This document shows positions 33,425-46,153 of a DNA stretch of 64,000 nucleotides, one piece after another (position 1 is the first letter of the stretch; the number at the start of each line of letters is the position of its first letter). This DNA comes from Erythrobacteraceae bacterium CFH 75059 (lineage in GTDB: Bacteria; Pseudomonadota; Alphaproteobacteria; Sphingomonadales; Sphingomonadaceae): contig SJSR01000002.1 in assembly GCA_004331795.1 (NCBI GenBank), positions 682,001 through 746,000 of the forward strand, written 5' to 3'. Made by a program: the position numbers and the translations under genes. The notes under the pieces are model-generated. The model saw nothing but the letters and a program-made list of their open reading frames with translations. It had not been told where the DNA came from and ran no database searches.

Positions 33425-34219
33425 TCAGCTCGCCGTGACGCCGGGCGCGTGGTTCTGCACCAGCCGGTGCGCCTTGCGGTACCAGTCCGAACCGGGATAG
33501 TTCGCGCCGAGCACGGCCGCGAACTTCACCGCCTCTTCCGGCAGACCCAGCGCCAGACTGCTTTCCGTCAGTCGGAACAGCGCCTCCGGTGCGTGGCTGG
33601 TCGTCTGATACTGCTCCACCACGTTGCGGAAGCGGATGTTGGCGGCAAGCCAGCGGCCCGAACGCTGGTATCCGCGGCCGATTTCCATCTCCTTTCCGGC
33701 CAGATGGTCGGCGACGAGATCAAGCTTGAGCCGCGCGTCGGCCGCGTATTCGGACGTGGGAAAGCGGCGCACGACTTCGTTGAGCGCCGTGCGGGCGAGT
33801 TCGGTGTTCTTCTGATCCCGCTGCACGTCGCTGATCTGCTCGTAGTAGCTCAGCGCGATGAGGTAATAGGCGTAGGGCGCATCCTTGTTGCCGGGATGGA
33901 TGGTCAGGAAGCGCTGCGCCGACTGGATGGCCTTGGCGTAGTCGGCGGCGGCGTAATAGCTGAACGCGCTCATCAGCTGCGCCCGGCGCGCCCACGGGCT
34001 GTAGGGATGCTGCCGCTCCACCTCGTCGAACAGCCCGGCCGCGAGGACGTAATTGCCGCGATCGAGGCGGTTCTTGGCCTCGGCGTAGAGCGTCTCGACA
34101 TCGCGCGCGACATAGGCGGTGTCGGCAGGACGGTTCTGTCCGCCGCCGCAGGCGGTGACACTCAGGGCGGCCAGCGCCAGGACGCCGGCCTTCGGCAGCG
34201 TGCGAATGATCGGTTGCAT
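33425..34219 (-). CDS. bamD: Outer membrane assembly lipoprotein BamD
   Basis: Essential lipoprotein of the BAM complex that inserts beta-barrel proteins into the outer membrane. 264 aa. A lipoprotein signal ends in the lipobox VTAC (Cys24). Five TPR-like units follow, including ETLYAEAKNRLDRGNYVLAA and LFDEVERQHPYSPWARRAQL, which match the BamD consensus, and LIALSYYEQISDVQRDQKNT. No Shine-Dalgarno sequence precedes the ATG, and a good -35/-10 pair ends 6 bases upstream of it. First gene of bamD-recN-ligA. Confidence 0.96.
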   Translation of the reverse strand: MQPIIRTLPKAGVLALAALSVTACGGGQNRPADTAYVARDVETLYAEAKNRLDRGNYVLAAGLFDEVERQHPYSPWARRAQLMSAFSYYAAADYAKAIQSAQRFLTIHPGNKDAPYAYYLIALSYYEQISDVQRDQKNTELARTALNEVVRRFPTSEYAADARLKLDLVADHLAGKEMEIGRGYQRSGRWLAANIRFRNVVEQYQTTSHAPEALFRLTESSLALGLPEEAVKFAAVLGANYPGSDWYRKAHRLVQNHAPGVTAS

Positions 34220-34352: not shown

Positions 34353-35693
34353 GTGGATGCACACGTTCTCGTCGTCGAGAGCGACGAACTGCTGCGGGAT
34401 CTGCTGACCGTCAGGCTGCATGTCGCGGGTTTCCGCAGCCATCCGGCCGCGGACGGAGCCGAGGCGCTGCGCTGGCTCGAGACGCATTCGACGGATCTCG
34501 TGCTGCTGGCCAGCATGATGCCGATGATGTCAGGCGCGGAAACGCTCGCCCGCCTGCGGGCCTCACCCAGCCTGTCGCACATCCCGGTCATCATGATGAC
34601 CCCGCCTCTCGCGGGCGAGGATGCGCGCCGGCTGAAGTCGCTCGGCGCAACGGACATCCTGAGGAAACCGGTTTGCGGCGCGCGCCTTGTCCGCGCCATC
34701 TCCGAGGCCGTGCAGGCACGCCGGTCCGCCGCCACGCCGCTCCGCCGGCTCAAGATAACGGTGATGACACCCGCCGTTCTCGCGGCCACGGCAGCAGCCG
34801 GCACGGCGGCGGCGGCCACGATCCCCGCGCCCGCGGCAGCGCCTGCTGCGGTTTCAGCCACCGGGTCGGCGAAGCACACGGCGTCGGCGGCGGAGGCGCG
34901 CGCGCAGACGGACGAGCCGGCGCGATCCCGACCCGCTCCTCCGCCGGTCCCGCCCCAGCCTGAACCCGCATCCGGGGCCGAGCCATGGTCGCCTCGCACC
35001 AGCATCGCGCTCGTTCATGGGCGCAGCTGGGCCGAGGACGTGGCGCATTCGGCGTGGAGCGACACCACTCTCACGCTCGCCTACCGGCCCACCCGCCGGA
35101 GCGGATACAGCCTCGAGGCCGGCCACGCGCGCCGCTTCGGCCTGTCCGACACGCAGCTTCAGGTGAGGGGCGACTGGGCTGTGGGCACGCGCAGTTCGGT
35201 GTTTCTCGCCGGCGTGGCGACGCCGCAGGCCGAATTGCGCGAGCGGGTCGGCCTGCGCGCCGGCTTCGCCCACACGCCGCGGCCGCATCTGGAGATCGGC
35301 GCCAGCACCCGCCTCGGCGAGTTCCGCGACGGCACGAAGCTCGTGGCGACGCCCTACGTCGCGGTCAGCACGACCGGCGAGCGGGTGACGGTGATCGCCG
35401 AAGCCATCAACCTGTGGAACCTGTCGGGTCCGGCCGATCACCGGCTCGGGTTCGGCTTGCGTGTCCGGGCGGCGCCGGACGAGCGGTGGCGGCTGCTTGG
35501 CGGTTATGCGCGCTATCCGGAAGTCGAGGCGGGAACCGCACGCACCGTCCGCTCCCTCTATGCCGGCGCGTCCGTCCGGGTGGCGGAAACCGTCACGCTG
35601 TCGGCAAGTGTCGCCAACGACCGCTACGAAGGACTGTTCACCCGCAACGGCGTCACGCTGGGCATGGTGCATGAGTGGCGAGGACGCAGGTGA
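34353..35693 (+). CDS. Pseudo-receiver domain fused to a predicted YaiO-like outer-membrane beta-barrel
   Basis: 446 aa, GTG start with GGAGGGGG upstream. Residues 3-122 are a CheY-like receiver: VLVVESDE replaces the acidic pocket, T83 and K105 (LRKP) are kept, but the phospho-acceptor position reads LLASMMP, with Ala53 in place of Asp. After basic residues (RRLK, 131-134) comes a hydrophobic stretch at 135-157 that looks like a signal anchor or signal peptide. An Ala/Pro-rich linker runs to about 211. Residues 212-446 show alternating polar/hydrophobic strands (SIALVHGRSW, TLTLAYRP, YSLEAGHARRF, SVFLAGVATP, TLGMVHEW), as in YaiO-type barrels. The barrel family is inferred from pattern and neighbours. 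It overlaps the next gene by 4 bases. How one chain joins a cytoplasmic fold to a barrel is unclear. Confidence 0.75.
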   Translation: MDAHVLVVESDELLRDLLTVRLHVAGFRSHPAADGAEALRWLETHSTDLVLLASMMPMMSGAETLARLRASPSLSHIPVIMMTPPLAGEDARRLKSLGATDILRKPVCGARLVRAISEAVQARRSAATPLRRLKITVMTPAVLAATAAAGTAAAATIPAPAAAPAAVSATGSAKHTASAAEARAQTDEPARSRPAPPPVPPQPEPASGAEPWSPRTSIALVHGRSWAEDVAHSAWSDTTLTLAYRPTRRSGYSLEAGHARRFGLSDTQLQVRGDWAVGTRSSVFLAGVATPQAELRERVGLRAGFAHTPRPHLEIGASTRLGEFRDGTKLVATPYVAVSTTGERVTVIAEAINLWNLSGPADHRLGFGLRVRAAPDERWRLLGGYARYPEVEAGTARTVRSLYAGASVRVAETVTLSASVANDRYEGLFTRNGVTLGMVHEWRGRR

Positions 35694-36541
35694 GCGCATC
35701 CGCGCAAGCCCTGCTGATCATCCTGTTTCAGGGCCTGTGCGTCCTTCTTGGCGGTGCGCTGATCATCGTGACGAGGCGCTGGTTCGTGGCGCAGCGCGCT
35801 GCCCGTGACCGTCTGCGGCAGCGGATCCTGCGCGCCGAGCTCATCCAGGCCGTCATCCGCGACAATGACGGCTTCGTGTGCAGAAGCTGGTCGGCACGCG
35901 ATCGCCGCGCCGCCTTCGCCGTCGCTGCCCAGCTTCTCGCGCTCCTGCCCGACAGGGAACGCGGCCGGCTGGAACGGATCGTCGAGGGCCATGGTGTTCT
36001 GGCGGAAGCGATGCGGCAGCTGCGTCACAGGAGCCCCCACCGGCGCATCGCGGCCGCACGCCGGCTGGCCCCGTTCGGAACGCCCGCGGTGCAGGATGCG
36101 CTCCATGGCTCGCTTCGCCGCGATCCGTCCGTCCGTGTGCGGCTCGAAGCGGCCATCGCCATCTCGGTGCGGGGGACACTGCCGCCCCTGTGGCGGCTTG
36201 TGCGCGATGTTCTCCCGGAAGGACAGCCGCTGACGCCCAACCACCGGCTGCTGTTCCGCAGCCTGGCGCCGCGCTGTCCGGACGCCCTCGTCGCGCTTGC
36301 GACCTGTCAGGACGAGGCGCGGCTGCGCGTCCTTGCGGTGGACGGCCTGCTCCATGGCGCGCCGTCCCGCCTTGACCATGTGGCAGACCTGCTGGGCGAT
36401 GATCCGGATCCTGAGGTCGCACGGCTGGCCCGGATTGCCGCGCAGGAGGCCCGCGCCCCGCGGCCAAGATCTGCGCCTCAGCCCGCGCCCGCGCCCCCGG
36501 TCACGCCGCCGCTGCTCCCACGGCCGCGGCTGGCCGCCTGA
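35690..36541 (+). CDS. Membrane-anchored HEAT-repeat-like protein
   Basis: 283 aa from the GTG at 35690, whose GTGA overlaps the upstream stop; GAGGAC lies about 6 bases before it. A single N-terminal helix (LLIILFQGLCVLLGGALIIV, about 8-27) with following Arg residues anchors it with the bulk in the cytoplasm. The rest is a run of amphipathic helix pairs with HEAT-like phasing (RRIAAARRLAPFGTPAVQDA, PSVRVRLEAAIAISVRG, ARLRVLAVDGLLHGAP, PEVARLARIAAQEA), then a Pro-rich tail. Probably a scaffold for the glycosyltransferase encoded 10 bases downstream. A HEAT-repeat gene beside a PgaC-like transferase and a YaiO-type barrel is an arrangement I recall from other bacteria. Confidence 0.8.
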   Translation: MSASAQALLIILFQGLCVLLGGALIIVTRRWFVAQRAARDRLRQRILRAELIQAVIRDNDGFVCRSWSARDRRAAFAVAAQLLALLPDRERGRLERIVEGHGVLAEAMRQLRHRSPHRRIAAARRLAPFGTPAVQDALHGSLRRDPSVRVRLEAAIAISVRGTLPPLWRLVRDVLPEGQPLTPNHRLLFRSLAPRCPDALVALATCQDEARLRVLAVDGLLHGAPSRLDHVADLLGDDPDPEVARLARIAAQEARAPRPRSAPQPAPAPPVTPPLLPRPRLAA

Positions 36542-36551
36542 GGCGCGGACA

Positions 36552-37964
36552 ATGACAGCCAGCCTCGCACTCACTGTCCTGCTGATCCCGGTCGCCGCGG
36601 TGCTGGCGATCCAGAACCTCGTCTATGTGGCGCAGCTCGTCGCCACCGTGCGCCAGCGGATGACGGAGCCACTCGGCGTCGGCACCCTGCGCGACCTGTG
36701 GGCGCTGCAATCGCGGCAGTCGCCGCCGGTGTCCATCGTCGCCCCCGCCTTCAACGAGGAGCTTTCGATCGTCGACAGCGTGCGCGCGCTGCTGTCGCTG
36801 AACTATCCCGACTTCGAGGTGATCATCGTCAATGACGGCTCCAGGGACAGGACGCTGGAGGTGCTCATCCAGACCTTCGACATGGTGCCGCGCCGCCGCC
36901 CGGTTCAGGCGCTCCTGGCACATCAGCCGATCACGCGCGTCTACCGCTCCGTCAGCCATCCGGCGCTGGTGGTGGTCGACAAGGTGAACGGGCGCAAGGC
37001 GGACGCCGCCAACGCCGGCATCGCCGTGGCCGTCAATCCTCTGGTCTGCATCATCGATGCCGATTCCCTCATCGACGAGGATGCGCTGCTGCGCGCGTCG
37101 CAGCCGTTCCTGTCGGACGGCGGCGCCGTGGTCGCCGTGGGCGGCACGGTCCGCCTCACCAATGGCTGCGGCATCGTCGCGGGGCAGCTCCAGACGGTGA
37201 ACATGCCGCGCGGCTGGATCCCGCGCTTTCAGGTGCTGGAATATCTGCGCGCCTTCATGGTGGCGCGCGTCTCCGCGTCGCGCTGGGGCATGCTGATGCT
37301 GATCTCCGGCGCGTTCGGGCTGTTCCGGAGAGACGCGCTGCTCGCAGCCGGCGGCTTCGATCACGACAGCCGCGGAGAGGATCTCGAACTGTGCGTCCGG
37401 CTGCACCGGATCGGCCGCGAGCGCGGGCAGAGGCCCAAGGTCGTCTTCGTGCCCGATGCGGTGTGCTGGACGGAAGCACCGTTCAACCGCGCCGGACTGC
37501 GCAACCAGCGCACGCGCTGGAGCCAGGGTGGGCTTGAGGTGCTGGCCAAGCATCGGAGCATGCTGTTCAACCCGCGCTACGGACGGATCGGCCTGGTCGG
37601 TCTGCCCCTGGTGCTGCTGGAGACGGCGCTGGTGCCGGCCGCCGAACTGCTGGGCTATCTGCTGGCGCCGCTGCTCTATCTGACGGGAACGGATGAAGGC
37701 GCCTTGCTGGTGGGCATGCTGTTCCTGCACCTGCTGTTCGGCACGAGCGTCAGCCTCGCCGCCGTGGCGCTCGAGGAGTTGCAGATGCGCCAGCACGAGC
37801 GGATCGGCCATGTCGCGGTGCTGATCGCCTGCTGCTTTCTCGAGAACTTCGGCTACCGGCAGCTCAACGCCTGGTACCGTCTGAAGGGCGTGCGGGCATG
37901 GTGGAAGGGCGAAACCGGCTGGCTCGCGGTGGAGCGACAGGGGTTTGCCGCCGCGCGGAGCTGA
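36552..37964 (+). CDS. Processive family 2 glycosyltransferase (PgaC/hyaluronan-synthase-like)
   Basis: Inner-membrane polysaccharide synthase, 470 aa. An N-terminal helix (4-30) precedes the GT-A domain: VSIVAPAFNEE (60-70), NDG at 94-96, DAD at 169-171 as metal-binding DxD, the GED acceptor-site acid at 275-277 in SRGEDLELCVRLHR, and QRTRW at 319-323 (the Q/RxxRW product-binding motif of processive synthases). Three or four C-terminal helices start at about 347. The layout matches poly-N-acetylglucosamine synthase PgaC and E. coli YaiP, but the sugar is unknown. No deacetylase, PgaA-type porin or PgaD subunit is nearby. Last gene of the three-gene unit; lepA converges 28 bases on. Confidence 0.9.
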   Translation: MTASLALTVLLIPVAAVLAIQNLVYVAQLVATVRQRMTEPLGVGTLRDLWALQSRQSPPVSIVAPAFNEELSIVDSVRALLSLNYPDFEVIIVNDGSRDRTLEVLIQTFDMVPRRRPVQALLAHQPITRVYRSVSHPALVVVDKVNGRKADAANAGIAVAVNPLVCIIDADSLIDEDALLRASQPFLSDGGAVVAVGGTVRLTNGCGIVAGQLQTVNMPRGWIPRFQVLEYLRAFMVARVSASRWGMLMLISGAFGLFRRDALLAAGGFDHDSRGEDLELCVRLHRIGRERGQRPKVVFVPDAVCWTEAPFNRAGLRNQRTRWSQGGLEVLAKHRSMLFNPRYGRIGLVGLPLVLLETALVPAAELLGYLLAPLLYLTGTDEGALLVGMLFLHLLFGTSVSLAAVALEELQMRQHERIGHVAVLIACCFLENFGYRQLNAWYRLKGVRAWWKGETGWLAVERQGFAAARS

Positions 37965-37992: not shown

Positions 37993-39810
37993 CTACGGCT
38001 CCCCCATCCTCAGCGCGGCGATGAAGGCCTCCTGCGGGATCGAGACGTTGCCGTATTCGCGCATCCGCGCTTTGCCCTTCTTCTGCTTCTCCAGCAGCTT
38101 CTTCTTGCGGGTAATGTCGCCGCCATAGCATTTGGCGGTCACGTCCTTGCGCAACGCGGCGATGGTTTCGCGGGCGATGACCTTGCCGCCGATCGCGGCC
38201 TGGATCGGGATCTTGAACAGGTGGCGGGGAATGAGGTCCTTCAGCCGCTCGCACATGCCGCGCCCGCGTTCCTCCGCGACCGAGCGGTGGACGATCAGGG
38301 ACAGGGCGTCGACCGGCTCATTGTTGACGAGGATGTTCATCTTGACGAGATCGCCTTCCCTCAGGCCGATCTGCTCGTAGTCGAAGGAGGCGTAGCCGCG
38401 ACTGATCGACTTGAGCCGGTCGTAGAAGTCGAACACCACCTCGTTCAGCGGCAACTCGTAGCTGACCTGCGCCCGCCCGCCGACATAGGTAAGGCCCGTC
38501 TGGATGCCGCGGCGGTCCTGGCACAGCTTGAGGATCGAGCCGAGATATTCGTCGGGCGTGTAGATCGTCGCCTTGATCCACGGCTCCTCGATGGAGAGGA
38601 TGCGGTTGACGTCGGGATAGTCGGCGGGATTGTGCAGATACAGTTCGCGCGCGTCCTCCGTCCGGCTGGCCGCGAGCTGGATGCGGTAGACGACCGATGG
38701 CGCCGTGGTGATGAGGTCGAGATCGTATTCGCGGCTGAGCCGCTCCTGGATGATCTCGAGATGCAGCAGGCCAAGGAAGCCGCAGCGAAAGCCGAAGCCG
38801 AGCGCCGCCGACGACTCCATCTCGTAGGAGAAGGAGGCATCGTTCAGGCGCAGCTTGGCGATGCTCTCGCGCAGCTTCTCGAAATCGGCGGCGTCGACCG
38901 GGAACAGGCCGCAGAAGACGACCGGCTGCACCTCCTTGTAGCCGGGCAGGGCCTGCGCCGCGCCGTTCTTGACGGTGGTGATGGTGTCCCCGACCCGGGC
39001 CTGTTCCACCTCCTTGATCTGGGCGGTGATGAAGCCGATCTCGCCCGGCCCGATTTCCGGCAGGTCGACGCGCTTGGGCGTGAAGGCGCCCACCCTGTCG
39101 ACGAGATGCTCGGTGCCACCCTGCATGAAGCGGATGTTCAGCCCCTTGCGGATCACCCCGTCGATGACGCGCACCAGAATGACGACGCCGAGATACGGGT
39201 CGTACCAGCTGTCGACCAGCATGCCGCGCAGCGGCGCGTCGCGGTCGCCCTTGGGCGGCGGGATGCGGGCGACCACCGCTTCCAGCACCTCCTCGATGCC
39301 GATGCCCGACTTGGCCGAGGTCAGCACCGCGTCCGAGGCGTCGATGCCGATGATGTCCTCGATTTCCGCCTTGACCTTTTCCGGCTCGGCGGCGGGCAGG
39401 TCGATCTTGTTGATGACGGGCACGATTTCGTGGTCGTGCTCGATCGACTGGTAGACATTGGCGAGGGTCTGGGCCTCGACCCCCTGCGCGGCGTCGACCA
39501 CCAGCAGCGCGCCCTCGCAGGCGGCGAGGCTGCGGCTGACCTCGTAGGCGAAGTCCACATGACCGGGCGTGTCCATGAGGTTCAGGGCATAGGTCTTGCC
39601 GTCGCGCGCGGTGTAGTTCAGCCGCACGGTCTGGGCCTTGATGGTGATCCCGCGCTCGCGCTCGATGTCCATGTTGTCGAGCACCTGCTCGCTCATCTCG
39701 CGATCGGTGAGGCCCCCGCACGCCTGGATGAGCCGGTCGGCGAGCGTGGACTTGCCGTGGTCGATGTGGGCGATGATGGAGAAGTTGCGGATCAGCGAAA
39801 GCTCGGTCAT
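37993..39810 (-). CDS. lepA: Elongation factor 4 (LepA)
   Basis: Ribosome-associated GTPase that back-translocates or remodels stalled ribosomes. 605 aa from ATG 39810, beginning [21 protein letters not shown]1 [10 protein letters not shown]3 DTPGHVDF and G4 NKIDLP are intact, and the LepA-specific C-terminal domain ends [20 protein letters not shown]. The frame remains open to 39942 upstream, but the family start is at 39810. It lies 67 bases downstream of the GGDEF/EAL/PilZ gene on the same strand. Confidence 0.97.
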
Positions 39811-39877: not shown

Positions 39878-42091
39878 TCAGCTCTGCGCGTCGCCGGCAC
39901 GCGGGGCACGCGCCGACAGGGTGAAGCAGGCGGGCGAGCCACCGCCTTTCTCTCCCCCGGCGATCAGCGACGGGCCGGCGCCGAGCGCGGCGACGGGTGC
40001 TCCGGCCACGGCGAGCGCATAGGGGGAAACCCGGTGACGCGTGCACAGACCGCCGGCACCGTCATCGACCAGCGCGCTCTCGAATTCGAGGCCCTGCGTG
40101 TCTCCGTCGGTCCGCACCACGGTCGCCACGGCCAGTTGACCACCTCCGAAGTCGAGGACGAACTGCGTGCCGACCGGAACATCCTCCAGCCCCTCGATCA
40201 TGGCGCCTGTCCGGGACAGGTTGCGCAGCGTGACCTCGTAGTAATGGTCCTGATGGATGAGGCCCACGCGGCGGAACACCGTGCGGCGCCCGGCCCGCTG
40301 CGCGCCGTCGCGCACCGGTTCGAGCTGCCAGTCGTCCGCGGCAAGCTGCGCGGCGACCTCTTCGGCGGCCAGCGCTTCCGAAAAGACGAAGCCCTGCGCG
40401 TGGGTGATGCCACGACCCCGCAGCGCCTCGAGAAGCGCCATCGAACCGACGCCGGCCGCGACCGTCTCCAGCCGGAGCACCTTGGCAAGCTCCACGATCG
40501 CCTGCACCATTTCAAGGTCGCCGAGCGTGTCGGTGATCGTGCTTTCGAAGAACGACTGCCCCAGCTTGATGGTGCAGAACGGGGCGCGGCGCAGATAGCT
40601 CAGCGAGACATAGCCCGACCCGAACTGGTCGAGCGAGAGCCTGACGCCGCGGCGGAACAGGGCGGAGACGATCCGTTCGACCTCGTCGTGGTCGTTGCGG
40701 TAAAGGTCTTCGCCGACCTCGATCTGCAGCCGCTGCGGATCAAGACCGCTCTCGTCGAGCGCGGCTTCGACGTCGTCGAGAAACTGCCGGTCGGTGAACT
40801 GGACCGGCGAGACCGGCACGACAAGCCGCAGCCCCGCCGGCCACTGCGCGGCGTCGCGACATGCCTGTCGCAGCCCGTCGCGTCCGATGCGGGTGACGAG
40901 GCGGCTTGCCTCCGCAACGGGCATGAAGGTGTCGGCGGAAACCCGGCCTCTCTCAGGATCGTGCCAGACATACTGGAGCTGCAGGGCGCAGACGCGGTTG
41001 TCCGCCAGCGCCACCACCGGCTGATACTCGACCCTGATGTGGCCTGCCTCGATGGCTGCGGCGAGATCCTCTTCCATCTGCCGGCGCAGGCGGTCCTCCG
41101 CCTCGAGATCGACGGCATAGAAGCGGAACTGACCCCGGCCGTTGTGCTTGGCGGCATACAGCGCCAGATCGGCGGCCCGCGTCAGCTCGTCCCGCCCCAC
41201 GCCGTCATAGGGCGCGATGGCAATCCCGACCGAGGTGCCGATGCTGCACCGACCCTCTTCGAGGGCAAAGGGCTGCGAGAGCATGGTGATGATCTTGCGC
41301 GCGAGGTCGCCAAGCTGGCCGCGATCGTCCAGATCGGGCAGCAGCACCTGGAACTCGTCACCCCCCAGACGGCCGATCTCGCCGCGGGAGCCAACGACGC
41401 TCTCGATCCGGCGTGCCACCTCCACCAGCAGCTTGTCGCCGGCCGCATGGCCGAGCGTGTCGTTGACGTGCTTGAAACGGTCGAGGTCGAGCATCATCAG
41501 CGCACAGGCCCGGCGCGAGGCTCCGAAGGCCAGCAGCGTGGCGTCGATGACCTGTTCCATGCGGTAGCGGTTGGCGAGGCCGGTGAGTGCGTCCGACCGC
41601 GCCTGGCGGGCGGCTTCCTGTTCGCCGAGGAACGCGTCGGTCACGTTGATCCCGCTCCCGCGGAAGCCGAGGAACGCGCCCGCCGCGTCGCTGACCGGTC
41701 GCCCGGACAGCCGCAGCACGAGCGTCCGGCCGCCCTCCCCGACCTGAACCGTGAAGCCGGCGAAGGACTTGCGCGCGGCAAGCTTCAGCGCGAGCGACGG
41801 CGCCTCCCCGCCCTGCCCCACGGGCGTCAGCACGGCGGTCAGCGGGCGTCCGATGAGGTCGTCCACCGCCACACCGGCACTCGCGGCGATGCGCGGGCTG
41901 AGATAAGTCACGTGCCCCTGTGCGTCCGTGGCCCAGAACCAGGCGAGTCCCCGCTCCTCGAGATCCTCGATGATCGCCAGCTTGTCCTCGCGCGACAGCG
42001 GAGCGGCGTTCGCGGAAGGGGGCGGAGACGCAGGATCGGACAGGCCGGAGCGACGGCCGCGCATGCGCGTTAGGAACGGCATCTCACCCAT
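39878..42091 (-). CDS. PAS-GGDEF-degenerate EAL-PilZ protein
   Basis: Predicted diguanylate cyclase, 737 aa, no membrane segment. Domains: PAS (about 43-152), GGDEF with intact GGDEF at 243-247 ([12 protein letters not shown]), an EAL-fold domain (about 350-580) and PilZ (about 600-680) with RxxxR as RTVFR (603-607) and NLSRTG (624-629). The EAL domain has lost its catalytic set: EAL is QLQ (371-373), DDFG is DQFG (488-491), the LKID block is IKLG, and the VAEGVE block is VAAGVG. There is no RxxD inhibitory site before GGDEF. It should make c-di-GMP, not degrade it, and sense it through PilZ. The ATG at 42091 (GGA 6 bases upstream) is preferred over 42121. Confidence 0.92.
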
Positions 42092-42263: not shown

Positions 42264-43442
42264 ATGAAAACTCTTCTCGTAACCGCCGCGGCCGCGCTCC
42301 TCGCGGTGCCGGTGGCAGCGCAAAGCGATTCGCCGCCCAGCCAGCCGCTGCCGGAACGCAGCACGGTCCGGACGGAGGCCGGAACCTTGCAGATGCAGGT
42401 CATCGCACGGGGGCTGGAGCATCCGTGGGCCGTGGCCCTGCTGCCCGACCGGCAGGCGCTGGTGACGGAGCGCAATTCCGGGCGCCTGCTCGTCGTCAAC
42501 ACCGCCGACGGCAGCCGACGCGCCGTCTCTGGCGTGCCGCAGATCTTCCGCTTCAAGGGTGAAACGGGTCGCAGCCAGGCGGGATTGTTCGACGTCAAGC
42601 TGCATCCCGGCTTTGCGCAGAACCGGCTCGTCTATCTCAGCCTGTCGGCGCCCACCGAACGGGGTGCGACGCTCAAGATCGTCCGCGGGCGGCTCGTCGA
42701 CGAGAGGGGCAGCGCCCGGCTGGAGGACGTGACCGACATCTTTTCGCTGCAGGAGGACGATCAGGACTCGAGCGGCCTGCACTTCGGTGGGCGGATGGCG
42801 ATCCATGCGCCCACCAACGCGCTGTTCCTGACCGTGGGCGACCGCCGCAACATCTCGCGCGCGCAGGACGGCGAGGATCAGGCCGGCTCCATCCTGCGCA
42901 TGACGCTGGATGGCGACGTCCACCCCGACAATCCGCACCGCGGCGAAGGCGACATCAACGACTACATCTTCGCCATGGGCAGCCGCAACAGCCAGGCGCT
43001 CACCCTCGACTCGCGGGGACGGCTGTGGTCCGTCGAGCATGGACCTCAGCGCGGCGACCGCGTCGACCTCGTGCGCAGTGGCGCCAACCTTGGCTGGCCG
43101 TTCATCACCGGCGGCAGGGACTATTCCGATGCGCCGATCGGCGTCGGGCTCAGCCACCCCGGCATGACTTCGCCACTGCACGTGTTCGCAGAGACGATCG
43201 CGCCGTCCGGCGCGGCCTTCTACGACGCGGCGGCGCTGCCCGCGTGGCGTGGGAACATGCTCGTCGGCGGGCTCTACAATCAGGCGCTGGTGCGGGTGGT
43301 CGTCGACGGAGAGCGGGTCGCCGCGGTGCACACGGTTCCGGTCGGCCGCCGCATCCGCGACGTGCAGGTCGCCCCGGATGGCAGCATCTGGATGGTGACG
43401 GAACATGCGGACGGGGAACTGGTGCGGCTCTCGGCACGCTGA
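42264..43442 (+). CDS. PQQ-dependent soluble aldose sugar dehydrogenase
   Basis: Periplasmic six-bladed beta-propeller of the soluble glucose/aldose dehydrogenase family, 392 aa. Signal peptide MKTLLVTAAAALLAVPVAAQ with cleavage after AQ. Family signatures are ARGLEHPWAVALLPDRQALV, TERNSGRLLVV, SQAGLFDVKLHPGF, DSSGLHFGGRMAI with the probable catalytic His, FAMGSRNSQALTLDSRG and VEHGPQRGDRVDL. Uses PQQ to oxidise sugars and passes electrons to the respiratory chain; no PQQ synthesis genes are in the window. AGGAGG precedes the ATG and a consensus EcfG-like promoter lies upstream, suggesting stress induction. Confidence 0.92.
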   Translation: MKTLLVTAAAALLAVPVAAQSDSPPSQPLPERSTVRTEAGTLQMQVIARGLEHPWAVALLPDRQALVTERNSGRLLVVNTADGSRRAVSGVPQIFRFKGETGRSQAGLFDVKLHPGFAQNRLVYLSLSAPTERGATLKIVRGRLVDERGSARLEDVTDIFSLQEDDQDSSGLHFGGRMAIHAPTNALFLTVGDRRNISRAQDGEDQAGSILRMTLDGDVHPDNPHRGEGDINDYIFAMGSRNSQALTLDSRGRLWSVEHGPQRGDRVDLVRSGANLGWPFITGGRDYSDAPIGVGLSHPGMTSPLHVFAETIAPSGAAFYDAAALPAWRGNMLVGGLYNQALVRVVVDGERVAAVHTVPVGRRIRDVQVAPDGSIWMVTEHADGELVRLSAR

Positions 43443-43505
43443 ACCGCCTGCCCGCTCCCCGCGGCCGCTTGCCAAGACCCGGACCGGCGTGCACCCTGCG
43501 TCCCG

Positions 43506-43526
43506 GGCGGAACGCCGCGTTCCGCC
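43506..43526. repeat. 21-base perfect palindrome before the ferredoxin reductase gene
   Basis: GGCGGAACG (43506-43514), CCG, CGTTCCGCC (43518-43526): perfect 9-bp arms with a 3-base centre, ending 17 bases before the ATG at 43544. No T-run follows on the plus strand. It could be an operator or an RNA hairpin next to the ribosome binding site AAAGGGGGG. It is the only notable feature of the 101-base gap. Confidence 0.6.
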
Positions 43527-43543
43527 GGAAAAAGGGGGGCGCC

Positions 43544-44875
43544 ATGCACCACCTTGCGATCGTCGGGGCAGGTCCGGCCGGCTTTTACACCGCGGAAGCG
43601 GCGGCGAGGCGCTGGAACGATGCCGTTCAGATCGACATCATCGACGCGCTTCCCGCCCCTTTCGGCCTCATCCGCAGCGGCGTTGCGCCCGATCACCAGT
43701 CGATCAAAGCGGTGGCCCGCCGCTATGCCCAGACCGCCGCGTCACCCCCCGTCCGCTTCGTCGGGAATGTCCGCGTCGGTCTGGACGTGACGCTTGCCGA
43801 ACTGCTGGAGCTTTACGACGCGGTCGTCCTTGCGACCGGCGCGCCGGAGGACCGGCCGCTCGGGCTCCCGGGCGAGGACCTGCCGAACGTGTTCGGCAGT
43901 GCCGCGTTCGTCGGGTGGTACAACGGGCATCCGGCCCACGCCGCCCTGAAGCCCGACCTCTCCGGCCGGCATGCGGTTGTGGTCGGCATGGGCAATGTCG
44001 CCCTCGACGTCGCCCGCGTCCTCGCCAAGACCCCCGAGGAGTTCGCCGGAGCCGACATCGTCGCCCACGCCCTCGACACCCTCTCCGCGAGCGCCATCTC
44101 GCGCATCACCATTCTGGGTCGGCGGGGACCGCACCAGATCGCCATGACGCCCAAGGAGCTGGGCGAACTGCTTCACCTTGCCCGCGCCTCGCCGCACGTC
44201 GATGCCGCCGACCTGCCGCCGGCAGAGGACGACGCCGCGCTGGAGCCGGGTCGGCGCAAGTCGGTCGCCCTGTTGCGGCAGTTCGCGCGGGAGGATGGCC
44301 CGGGCAAGCCGGTCCGCATCGCCTTCGACCTGTTCGCCGCGCCGGTCGCCTTCAGGGGCGACACGCGGGTGCGGCAGGTGGAGGTGGAACGCACCCGGCT
44401 GGAGGGCGACCGGGCCGTGGGCACGGGCGCGCGCTACCGTGTCCCCGCCGATCTCGTCGTCACCTGCACCGGCTATCGCAGCACGGCTCTGGAAGGAGCG
44501 CCTTTCGACCATCAGGCAGGCCGCTTCGTCAACGAGGGCGGACGCGTGGCTCCGGGACTCTATTGCGTGGGCTGGGCGCGGCGCGGCCCGACCGGGACCA
44601 TCGGCACCAACCGGCCCGACGGGGAGGAGGTGGTGGAACGGCTCGAGACCGACGGCTGGCGCGCCGGCGGTGCGCGCCGCGGCCGCGAAGGACTGGACGC
44701 CCTTGTCGACGCGCGGGGTATCGACGCGGTGACCTTCGACGACTGGCTGAGGATTGATGCCGCGGAGGTCGCAGCCGCACGGCCCGGCGCACCGCGCGAG
44801 AAGTTCGTCAGCGTCGCCGCCATGCTGCAGGCGCGCACGCTGCTTAAGGAAAAAACTCCTCGTCCACCGCCTTGA
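43544..44875 (+). CDS. Ferredoxin/adrenodoxin-NADP reductase family FAD enzyme
   Basis: 443 aa flavoprotein of the adrenodoxin reductase/FprA type. FAD-binding IVGAGPAGFYTAEAAAR (about 5-22), the family motif PFGLIRSGVAPDHQSIK, YDAVVLATGAPEDRPLGLPGE, the NADPH fold VVVGMGNVALDVARVL, and the C-terminal YCVGWARRGPTGTIGTNRPD are all present. It shuttles electrons between NADPH and ferredoxin; KorAB in this window also uses ferredoxin. The ATG at 43544 has AAAGGGGGG 4-12 bases upstream. The frame extends to 43025 but only inside the upstream gene. Its 3' end overlaps the converging mrr gene by 32 bases. Confidence 0.92.
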   Translation: MHHLAIVGAGPAGFYTAEAAARRWNDAVQIDIIDALPAPFGLIRSGVAPDHQSIKAVARRYAQTAASPPVRFVGNVRVGLDVTLAELLELYDAVVLATGAPEDRPLGLPGEDLPNVFGSAAFVGWYNGHPAHAALKPDLSGRHAVVVGMGNVALDVARVLAKTPEEFAGADIVAHALDTLSASAISRITILGRRGPHQIAMTPKELGELLHLARASPHVDAADLPPAEDDAALEPGRRKSVALLRQFAREDGPGKPVRIAFDLFAAPVAFRGDTRVRQVEVERTRLEGDRAVGTGARYRVPADLVVTCTGYRSTALEGAPFDHQAGRFVNEGGRVAPGLYCVGWARRGPTGTIGTNRPDGEEVVERLETDGWRAGGARRGREGLDALVDARGIDAVTFDDWLRIDAAEVAAARPGAPREKFVSVAAMLQARTLLKEKTPRPPP

Positions 44876-45764
44876 TCGCGATGCGCTCCTCGACCCGGCA
44901 GCCGACCGAGTGACGAACCATCAGCCGCCCCAGCGTCTCGCCATCGACCAGCACGATGCGCTTGCTCAATCCGTCGGCGGTCTGGCGTGCCTGATGCGAG
45001 AAACGGGCGGTCGTCACGAACAGGCCCTTGCGCGCCTTGCGCTGGTCAAGGGCGCCGAAGAACCCGCGGATCGCCTCCGCACCGACGGCGGTTCCGGGTG
45101 CGTAACGCTTCGCCTGCACATAGACCTGTTCCAGCCCGAGTTCATCCTGATTGATGACGCCATCAACCCCGCCATCGCCGCTGCCGCCCAGAACCTCGCC
45201 CATCTCGTCGGGTGACCCGCCATAGCCCATGGCAATCAGCAGCCTGACGACGGCTTGCTCGAAGAAGGCCGGGGGCGCGGCGACGAGCCGGGCGAGCAGG
45301 TCCGCCGCAAGGGCGCTTTCCAGCTCCTCGCGTGCGCGCAGCATGCGTTCGTTCGGGGGCAACTCCTGCTCGGCTTCGGGGGGTGACGTGGCATCCGCTT
45401 CCCGTTTCGTCGACGATGTGACGAACGCTTCGAAAGCCGCATAGCGCCTGAGAGAGGCGGTGGTGATGCGCCCGGGAGCTTCCCTGAGCGCGGCTTCGCC
45501 CTCGCGCGTGATCGCGAAGACGCCGCGGCTCATGGGCGCGAGCAGTCCCGCCTTGCAGAGGTAGGTCTTGGCCCAGTGCACGCGGTTTGCAAACGTCGTC
45601 TGGCGCCCGGAGGGGAGCCGCTGCGCCTGCTGCTCCTGCGTCAGCGCGAAGCGGAGGGCCAGCCGGTCCACCATGTCACGCACCCGCGTCGTTCCGCCGG
45701 CAGCCTCCTCGAGGAGCGGGAGCATGAGCGTCTGGAAGTCGGGCACCTCGGGCCGCATCGGCAT
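44844..45764 (-). CDS. mrr: Mrr-type restriction endonuclease
   Basis: Predicted type IV (modification-dependent) nuclease, 306 aa. The N-terminal winged-helix Mrr_N domain (VPDFQTLMLPLLEEAAGG, then RVHWAKTYLCKAGLL and ITREGEAAL) is followed by a linker and the PD-(D/E)xK catalytic domain: GGSGDGGVDGVIN supplies the Asp and VYVQAKRY supplies QxK. Both look intact. The ATG at 45764 has GGGGAGG 9 bases upstream. It follows a small secreted-protein gene by 26 bases and dnaN beyond it, all on the same strand. It overlaps the converging reductase gene by 32 bases. It may cut methylated foreign DNA; specificity unknown. Confidence 0.88.
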   Translation of the reverse strand: MPMRPEVPDFQTLMLPLLEEAAGGTTRVRDMVDRLALRFALTQEQQAQRLPSGRQTTFANRVHWAKTYLCKAGLLAPMSRGVFAITREGEAALREAPGRITTASLRRYAAFEAFVTSSTKREADATSPPEAEQELPPNERMLRAREELESALAADLLARLVAAPPAFFEQAVVRLLIAMGYGGSPDEMGEVLGGSGDGGVDGVINQDELGLEQVYVQAKRYAPGTAVGAEAIRGFFGALDQRKARKGLFVTTARFSHQARQTADGLSKRIVLVDGETLGRLMVRHSVGCRVEERIAIKAVDEEFFP

Positions 45765-45790
45765 CGGCGGCAACCTCCCCTTGCGAGCGG

Positions 45791-46153
45791 TTAGCGGGCG
45801 TCGCCCTCCTCGAGAGCGGCAATCTGCCGGCCGAAGGCCTGGATTCGCTGGCCAATCACGCGCGCGGCGGCTTCGCACCGCGGAGCGAGCGCAGCGGCGC
45901 CCGCGATCGTCTGCTGCAGCGCCTCCCGGGTGCCCCAGGCCTCGAGCGTTCCGCCACTCCGCGCTTCGTAGCGCCCCATCCAGTATGTCGCGACAGCCGC
46001 CAGTCCCGACTTCTGCTGTGCATCCTCAACCTGCCCGGAGGCTGCTAAAGCCATCAGCGCGCACCGCATCTCCTCGTCAGGGCTGAGCGCATCCTGCGCC
46101 GATAGCGGCTGGGCAAGGCACAGGAGCGCCGCGGCGACAGGAAACAAGCGCAT
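45791..46153 (-). CDS. Small exported protein of unknown function
   Basis: 120 aa with a clear signal peptide (MRLFPVAAALLCLAQPLSAQ, cleavage after SAQ). The mature part is helical, with two cysteines (MRCALMAL and PRCEAA) that may form a disulfide, and an Ala-rich C-terminus. It starts 3 bases after the dnaN stop and ends 26 bases before mrr, so it sits within a dnaN transcription unit. I do not recognise a domain; the start, signal peptide and spacing make it a believable gene. Confidence 0.75.
   Translation of the reverse strand: MRLFPVAAALLCLAQPLSAQDALSPDEEMRCALMALAASGQVEDAQQKSGLAAVATYWMGRYEARSGGTLEAWGTREALQQTIAGAAALAPRCEAAARVIGQRIQAFGRQIAALEEGDAR

Follow-up and report, generated by a model that had tools for sequence, protein, structure and literature searches.

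P0001, a protein of 737 amino acids encoded on the minus strand of the window (the whole stretch of 64,000 nucleotides analysed here, from Erythrobacteraceae bacterium CFH 75059), is on balance probably a dedicated diguanylate cyclase. On the basis of its sequence we prefer the reading that a bifunctional PAS-GGDEF-EAL-PilZ enzyme, with its gene upstream of lepA, gave rise to P0001 by duplication, that the EAL domain of P0001 has become a scaffold and that its PilZ domain reads the product. In many enzymes of c-di-GMP metabolism a domain that makes the messenger is combined with one that breaks it down, and which of the two works is often not clear. In the mechanism that we propose, the EAL site would have eroded in one paralog clade after duplication of the bifunctional enzyme, with the GGDEF and PilZ domains kept. 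The PAS domain, presumed to be the sensor, would respond to an input and the GGDEF domain would synthesise c-di-GMP. The body of the EAL domain would be a structural or dimerisation scaffold that does no cutting and probably does not bind c-di-GMP, and the C-terminal PilZ domain would bind the product made nearby and bring the chain itself, or a partner, into another state.

The features of the gene and its neighbour, with their positions in the window, are as follows:

39878-42091, minus strand: gene of the PAS-GGDEF-degenerate EAL-PilZ protein P0001, 737 aa (translation and Pfam)
42091 (start) and 39880-39878 (stop), minus strand: ATG start codon and stop codon of P0001 (translation)
41636-41935, minus strand: PAS domain, residues 53-152 (Pfam PAS_4, E 3.8e-7)
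41132-41599, minus strand: GGDEF domain, residues 165-320, catalytic residues intact (Pfam E 2.2e-39; site columns)
41351-41365, minus strand: GGDEF motif, residues 243-247, without RxxD upstream (motif check)
40376-41071, minus strand: degenerate EAL domain, residues 341-572 (Pfam E 1.4e-49; motif table; AlphaFold2)
40967-40981, minus strand: QLQYV in place of ExLxR, residues 371-375 (alignment, motif table)
40076-40288, minus strand: PilZ domain, residues 602-672, Pfam 604-672 (Pfam; AlphaFold2; fold matches)
40271-40285, minus strand: PilZ RxxxR, R603 and R607 (alignment columns)
40205-40222, minus strand: PilZ NxSxxG, N624, S626 and G629 (alignment columns)
37993-39810, minus strand: gene taken to be lepA (EF-4), 67 bp downstream of the P0001 gene (sequence; synteny; our reading)

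The limits of the gene given in the preliminary description proved exact, and the start codon is backed by the opening MGxxPF, found in 8/8 aligned proteins with an eroded EAL site. Since the AlphaFold2 model of the whole chain has a pTM of 0.48, the packing of the domains is left unstated. A Pfam search of the window's genome gave seven GGDEF, seven EAL and five PilZ matches, two of the latter sharing one frame of 238 residues. The same genome encodes a GGDEF-EAL protein that reads GGSSF for GGDEF and has an intact EAL site (L096, 2084-3457; G000:C10:345688-346917).

Loss of the EAL active site

The EAL domain was scored at 13 key positions, which we chose from general knowledge and from alignments with MorA and PA0575. 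P0001 is changed at eight of these (Q371, Q373, V375, P426, Q489, G511, A546 and G549) and lacks, with these changes, the metal and catalytic residue set of an active EAL phosphodiesterase; the other five are kept (E458, E461, D488, K509 and Q566). The preliminary description, in which every canonical EAL position was said to be changed, thus went too far in its count, whereas its conclusion that the site is dead stands. The five changes that it listed are all real (EAL to QLQ, Asn to Pro, DD to DQ, the Asp of LKID to Gly, and AEGVE to AAGVG), and the Arg of ExLxR, replaced by V375, is a further loss absent from that list. Scoring was done on residue columns because the spacing pattern for EAL domains given in an excerpt of PMC8546604 matched only 3 of the 79 rows, intact members failing on spacing.

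According to an excerpt of PMC10333796, whether an inactive EAL domain binds c-di-GMP is determined by the ExLxR motif. Because its Arg is lost, the EAL domain of P0001 has probably lost c-di-GMP binding as well, as far as the residues indicate. By prediction the domain retains its fold: aligned with solved structures of single EAL domains, the EAL region of the model of the whole chain gave TMt values of 0.81-0.92. This fold, the capacity of catalytically inactive EAL domains to bind c-di-GMP (same excerpt of PMC10333796), and the Glu of ExLxR, kept in 17 of the 20 eroded proteins though not in P0001, are what would be expected if the degenerate domain were still a c-di-GMP receptor. The likeness would be to FimX and LapD, with which P0001 shares an EAL domain predicted to be without catalysis. 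We nevertheless regard a receptor of this type as very unlikely. FimX and LapD bind c-di-GMP through the EAL domain, according to the excerpt of PMC10333796, whereas ExLxR has become QLQYV in P0001, and among the 20 eroded proteins the Arg is kept in one and the Leu is lost in 19. Moreover, the GGDEF domain of FimX is described there as degenerate, and that of P0001 is intact.

The best relatives of the GGDEF-EAL part of P0001 among solved structures are PA0861, PA0575 and MorA of Pseudomonas aeruginosa, and PA0575 (5m3c) compares with the model at TMt 0.82. We take PA0861 to be RbdA and PA0575 to be RmcA. In the alignments the EAL motif set is complete in MorA (4rnh) and PA0575, unlike in P0001, and none of the three Pseudomonas proteins has a PilZ domain in the matched stretch.

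Zymomonas belongs to the same order as the window's organism. Its species Z. mobilis has a PAS-GGDEF-EAL protein, ZMO1055, in which an EAL substitution lowers the apparent phosphodiesterase activity; the likeness is one of description only, and the excerpt of PMC12900916 describes ZMO1055 without a PilZ domain, unlike P0001. Also by description only, P0001 can be likened to SFb52570 of Sinorhizobium fredii, which has no detectable phosphodiesterase activity and whose cyclase activity is abolished by deletion of the degenerate EAL domain (excerpt of PMC8546604); this is a precedent for the mechanism proposed here. In both, a GGDEF domain with a complete cyclase motif is joined to an EAL domain without an intact site, and P0001 has the full motif together with a predicted EAL fold that has lost its essential residues. 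For SFb52570, unlike P0001, activity was measured, and a PilZ domain is not mentioned in the excerpt.

A clade of eroded proteins

To judge from its sequence relatives, P0001 is not a lone decayed protein; it is a member of a lepA-linked PAS-GGDEF-EAL-PilZ family, found in Erythrobacteraceae and other Sphingomonadales. Relatives were collected from named genomes, of whose 18 loci 15 were used (the weak loci L035-L037 being left out), and from 59 genomes neighbouring that of the window. BLAST matches with E >1e-40, matches starting past query residue 170 and duplicate sequences were left out, and 79 relatives were selected and aligned. The first set held nine members with an eroded EAL site, the window's included. 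An ortholog at E 1e-235 was found in 14 of 397 genomes of the same family, which were taken from a larger group, 14/14 being of the eroded type; this threshold was set above the best scores of EAL-intact proteins and may miss more diverged eroded copies. The eroded set comes to 20 distinct proteins in total.

When the EAL columns were left out, the first nine eroded proteins grouped as a single clade in a tree of 78 rows (support 100/99), and all 20 did so in a quick tree of 88 rows (SH-aLRT 99). No EAL-intact row falls inside the eroded clade in these trees. Nine of the 20 had been chosen for being eroded and the score that found the rest includes the EAL domain, so that this bias is avoided only in the trees that omit the EAL columns. 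Since the eroded proteins make up one clade, they count as one event and not as 20. Twelve rows are outside the second tree (distant outgroups, a cut row and L123); L123 was dropped with its partner copy, its eroded copy being identical to that of L021. The protein L044_3619, cut by the end of its locus, was left out of both trees and of the motif counts in the 20 eroded and 59 other proteins, and L067, a match to a loose pattern, is not PilZ-bearing, which takes the PilZ-bearing count by that pattern from 52 to 51. In one locus (L071, 1612-9003; G026) three PAS-GGDEF-EAL-PilZ genes stand in a row, followed by lepA. The middle gene, like L044_1345, is sister to the eroded clade; its EAL site is nearly intact, with one change, Glu to Asp.

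The eroded proteins are changed at four to ten of the 13 EAL positions (n=20), L121 having the fewest with four. D511 and E546 are retained in none of the 20, R375, L373 and D489 in one, and E549 in three; N426, E458 and K509 persist in nine and Q566 in ten, and retention is highest for E371 (17/20, P0001 not among them), D488 (19/20) and E461 (20/20). By comparison, 56 of the 59 other rows with PilZ motifs have none of the 13 positions changed and three have a single change, which in one of the three is an alignment gap.

The constraint on the domains was compared in eight genomes that hold both copies, giving 28 comparisons that share genomes and are not independent. Mean identities among the eroded copies are 59 per cent for PAS, 83 for GGDEF, 66 for EAL and 87 for PilZ, against 60, 74, 69 and 79 per cent among the EAL-intact partners. 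The eroded copies are thus more alike than the partners in GGDEF and PilZ, about equally alike in PAS and slightly less alike in EAL, and in 27 of these 28 non-independent comparisons it is the eroded copies that have the lower value of EAL minus GGDEF identity. In all four domains of the eroded copies dN is below dS (22 comparisons), PAS being the weakest case. For the EAL domain this is so in 22/22, and since dS exceeds 1 in 18 of these 22 the ratios are rough.

The many EAL catalytic residues lost could also be those of a gene that is decaying and without function. We consider this highly improbable, given full-length open frames in 20/20 eroded proteins, invariant GGDEF and PilZ sites, and dN below dS in the four domains. 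A single degenerate gene in the window's genome is disfavoured in the same way by the 20-protein clade with its open frames and dN below dS.

The cyclase site and the PilZ domain

P0001 carries the full cyclase motif D-x7-N-x8-D...RxGGDEF, in a pattern test that allowed a last gap of 20-23 residues. The published form, D-x7-N-x8-D-x21-RxGGDEF, is the one used in the excerpt of PMC8546604 to call cyclases active. The GGDEF site had been described as intact, with which the complete spaced motif agrees, and the 17 GGDEF site columns have the residues of P0001 in all 20 eroded proteins.

A product-inhibition site (RxxD) was looked for ahead of the GGDEF motif of P0001 and none was found, either by pattern or in the 14-residue stretch itself, in agreement with the preliminary description. 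RxxD occurs in 0/79 PilZ-bearing members of the family (20 eroded and 59 others, EAL-intact ones included); in four of these rows (L025_3630, L032, L049 and L090), with GGDEF variants that the pattern cannot score, the absence was read in the table. A lack of the I-site peculiar to P0001 is thereby ruled out. Since even EAL-intact members have no RxxD, the PilZ domain and the absence of the I-site characterise the family at large and are no response to the loss of the EAL site. The PilZ domain, if it substitutes for the I-site, may therefore do so across the whole family.

By sequence the PilZ assignment of P0001 is weak: the domain scores 21.3 bits in hmmscan, below the Pfam cut-off of 22.5, and 24.9 bits, above it, in the Pfam genome search. 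A PilZ match at E 0.01 or better was obtained for 21 of 26 family members tested. The AlphaFold2 model of the PilZ domain alone has six strands and a mean pLDDT of 75.6. In a fold search it was matched best by PilZ domains or by proteins that bear one (PA0012, BcsA, MapZ, VCA0042 and Alg44), with a probability of ~1; the best E is 1.3e-3, none being at 0.001 or below. In a profile search of the sequences of solved structures no PilZ domain was matched.

The receptor motifs are complete, as had been reported: besides the predicted PilZ fold, P0001 has R603 and R607 of RxxxR, and N624, S626 and G629 of (D/N)xSxxG. The checked PilZ sites are invariant across the 20 eroded proteins. Both R603 and R607 are Arg in 20/20 of these as against 16 of the 59 other members. 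Among the 59, Lys occupies position 603 in 17 proteins and Gln in 11. Arg is found at the R602 position in 58 of the 59, so that binding may involve a somewhat different group of residues in these members.

The proposal that c-di-GMP is made and read in one chain fits these residues, and it gains from the clade of 20 proteins in which the EAL site has eroded and the GGDEF and PilZ sites are invariant. What the PilZ domain would do on binding is less clear-cut: feedback on the cyclase is possible, and the domain may equally be one of output. If it controls the cyclase, the product would exert its control through a distinct domain instead of an I-site. As an output module, the PilZ domain would bind the local c-di-GMP and switch an interaction with a target, with no feedback on the cyclase. 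Its presence in EAL-intact members, where it is not tied to the loss of the phosphodiesterase, speaks for this version, as do several PilZ proteins described as acting through partners (excerpt of PMC10333796); the recurrent neighbour, on the other hand, is lepA, which is no obvious target of c-di-GMP. We hold it to be a possible but less probable version, compatible with the dedicated cyclase, which it would narrow.

Parts of this arrangement are already known, namely cyclases with degenerate EAL domains and, in saprophytic Leptospira, proteins that hold PilZ and GGDEF in one chain as P0001 does (excerpt of PMC5932348). The Leptospira class is listed in that excerpt by domain content and, unlike P0001, without EAL. 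In the open-licence literature searched, no description of a fused GGDEF-EAL-PilZ family was found. In the excerpts that hold it, the term 'GGDEF-EAL-PilZ' refers to complexes of FimX with a PilZ protein, FimX-PilZ being likewise the subject in the excerpt of PMC5013675, and 'PilZ-GGDEF' occurs once in PMC12375680. The PilZ effector mPilZ-1753 of Qipengyuania flava was considered as a protein of the same architecture and ruled out, being 123 residues long (excerpt of PMC10267684).

Tandem copies and the surroundings of lepA

Members of the family adjoin lepA on the same strand in 21 of the 32 loci, often as two or three copies in tandem, and the other 11 have no lepA in the stretch covered. 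The names lepA, dnaN and bamD for the neighbouring genes are our reading. Among the eroded genes 19/20 adjoin lepA, the window's included, L131 having none in the stretch covered. An EAL-intact paralog lies beside 16 of the 20; for the window's gene and those of L121, L122 and L132 the stretch covered shows no such neighbour. Elsewhere in the genomes of L121, L122 and L132 there is a further relative at E 1e-110, with identities of 45, 38 and 46-47 per cent, respectively, and in the window's genome no second PilZ-type copy was found at that threshold.

In some EAL-intact copies it is the GGDEF site that has changed. The EAL-intact partner in Qipengyuania mesophila (L025_3630) is changed at 5 of the 17 GGDEF site columns and reads SGDAF; in Q. 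citrea H150 (L032) the only copy at E 1e-110 is changed at three of the 17 and reads GSDEF. These two genes (L025, 3630-5909, and L032, 5869-8163, both on the plus strand), with the EAL site intact and the GGDEF site damaged, are mirror images of P0001. A further copy, beside one of the long type (L049, 1429-3690, plus strand), reads GADEF and is changed at 5/17 columns with an intact EAL site. All other EAL-intact PilZ-bearing rows differ at one GGDEF column at most.

It looks, from these few cases, as if a bifunctional enzyme has been divided with opposite survivors. Tentatively, and with less assurance than for the dedicated cyclase, the lepA-linked tandem may be seen as a natural splitting of a bifunctional c-di-GMP enzyme. 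One copy would be a cyclase that reads its own product, its PilZ domain doing the work of the I-site, and the other would drift in some lineages to a phosphodiesterase only. The window's genome would have kept the cyclase-PilZ half, and Q. citrea H150 the copy with an intact EAL and a damaged GGDEF site. Since tandem paralogs of one genome differ in the half that is kept while the PilZ domain is constant, the roles of EAL scaffold and built-in reader could be compared directly.

The same tandem raises the possibility that P0001 acts mainly in a heteromer, with cyclase activity from one paralog and phosphodiesterase activity from its EAL-intact partner. The 16 of 20 eroded genes beside such a copy, and the loss of GGDEF residues from the Q. 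mesophila partner, agree with this. The four without such a neighbour in the stretch covered, and the window's genome with no second PilZ-type copy at E 1e-110, make it unlikely.

Beyond lepA, in convergent orientation, lie genes for a REC-domain protein, a HEAT-repeat protein and a family 2 glycosyltransferase (GT2) (window 34353-37964, plus strand). In the preliminary description the P0001 gene stood next to a polysaccharide cluster; it is indeed near, but only beyond lepA, and no tblastn match to the REC, HEAT and GT2 genes was found at E 1e-5 in the 32 relative loci (21 with lepA, some of the 32 ending before or soon after it). In a genome of the same genus (L068) lepA is followed by the counterpart of window 33425-34219, the three genes being absent in between, which suggests that window 34353-37964 is possibly an insertion. 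Judging from the tblastn result and the gene order in L068, the adjacency to the polysaccharide cluster is probably not conserved, and a link of P0001 to the polysaccharide genes is disfavoured on the same grounds.

On the other side of the P0001 gene, up to the gene taken to be dnaN, window 42264-45878 holds a GSDH-type sugar dehydrogenase gene, a gene that we presume to be reductase-like and an Mrr-type restriction endonuclease gene. The corresponding interval is a gap of ~1.4 kb in L121 and is occupied by the EAL-intact partner in L068.
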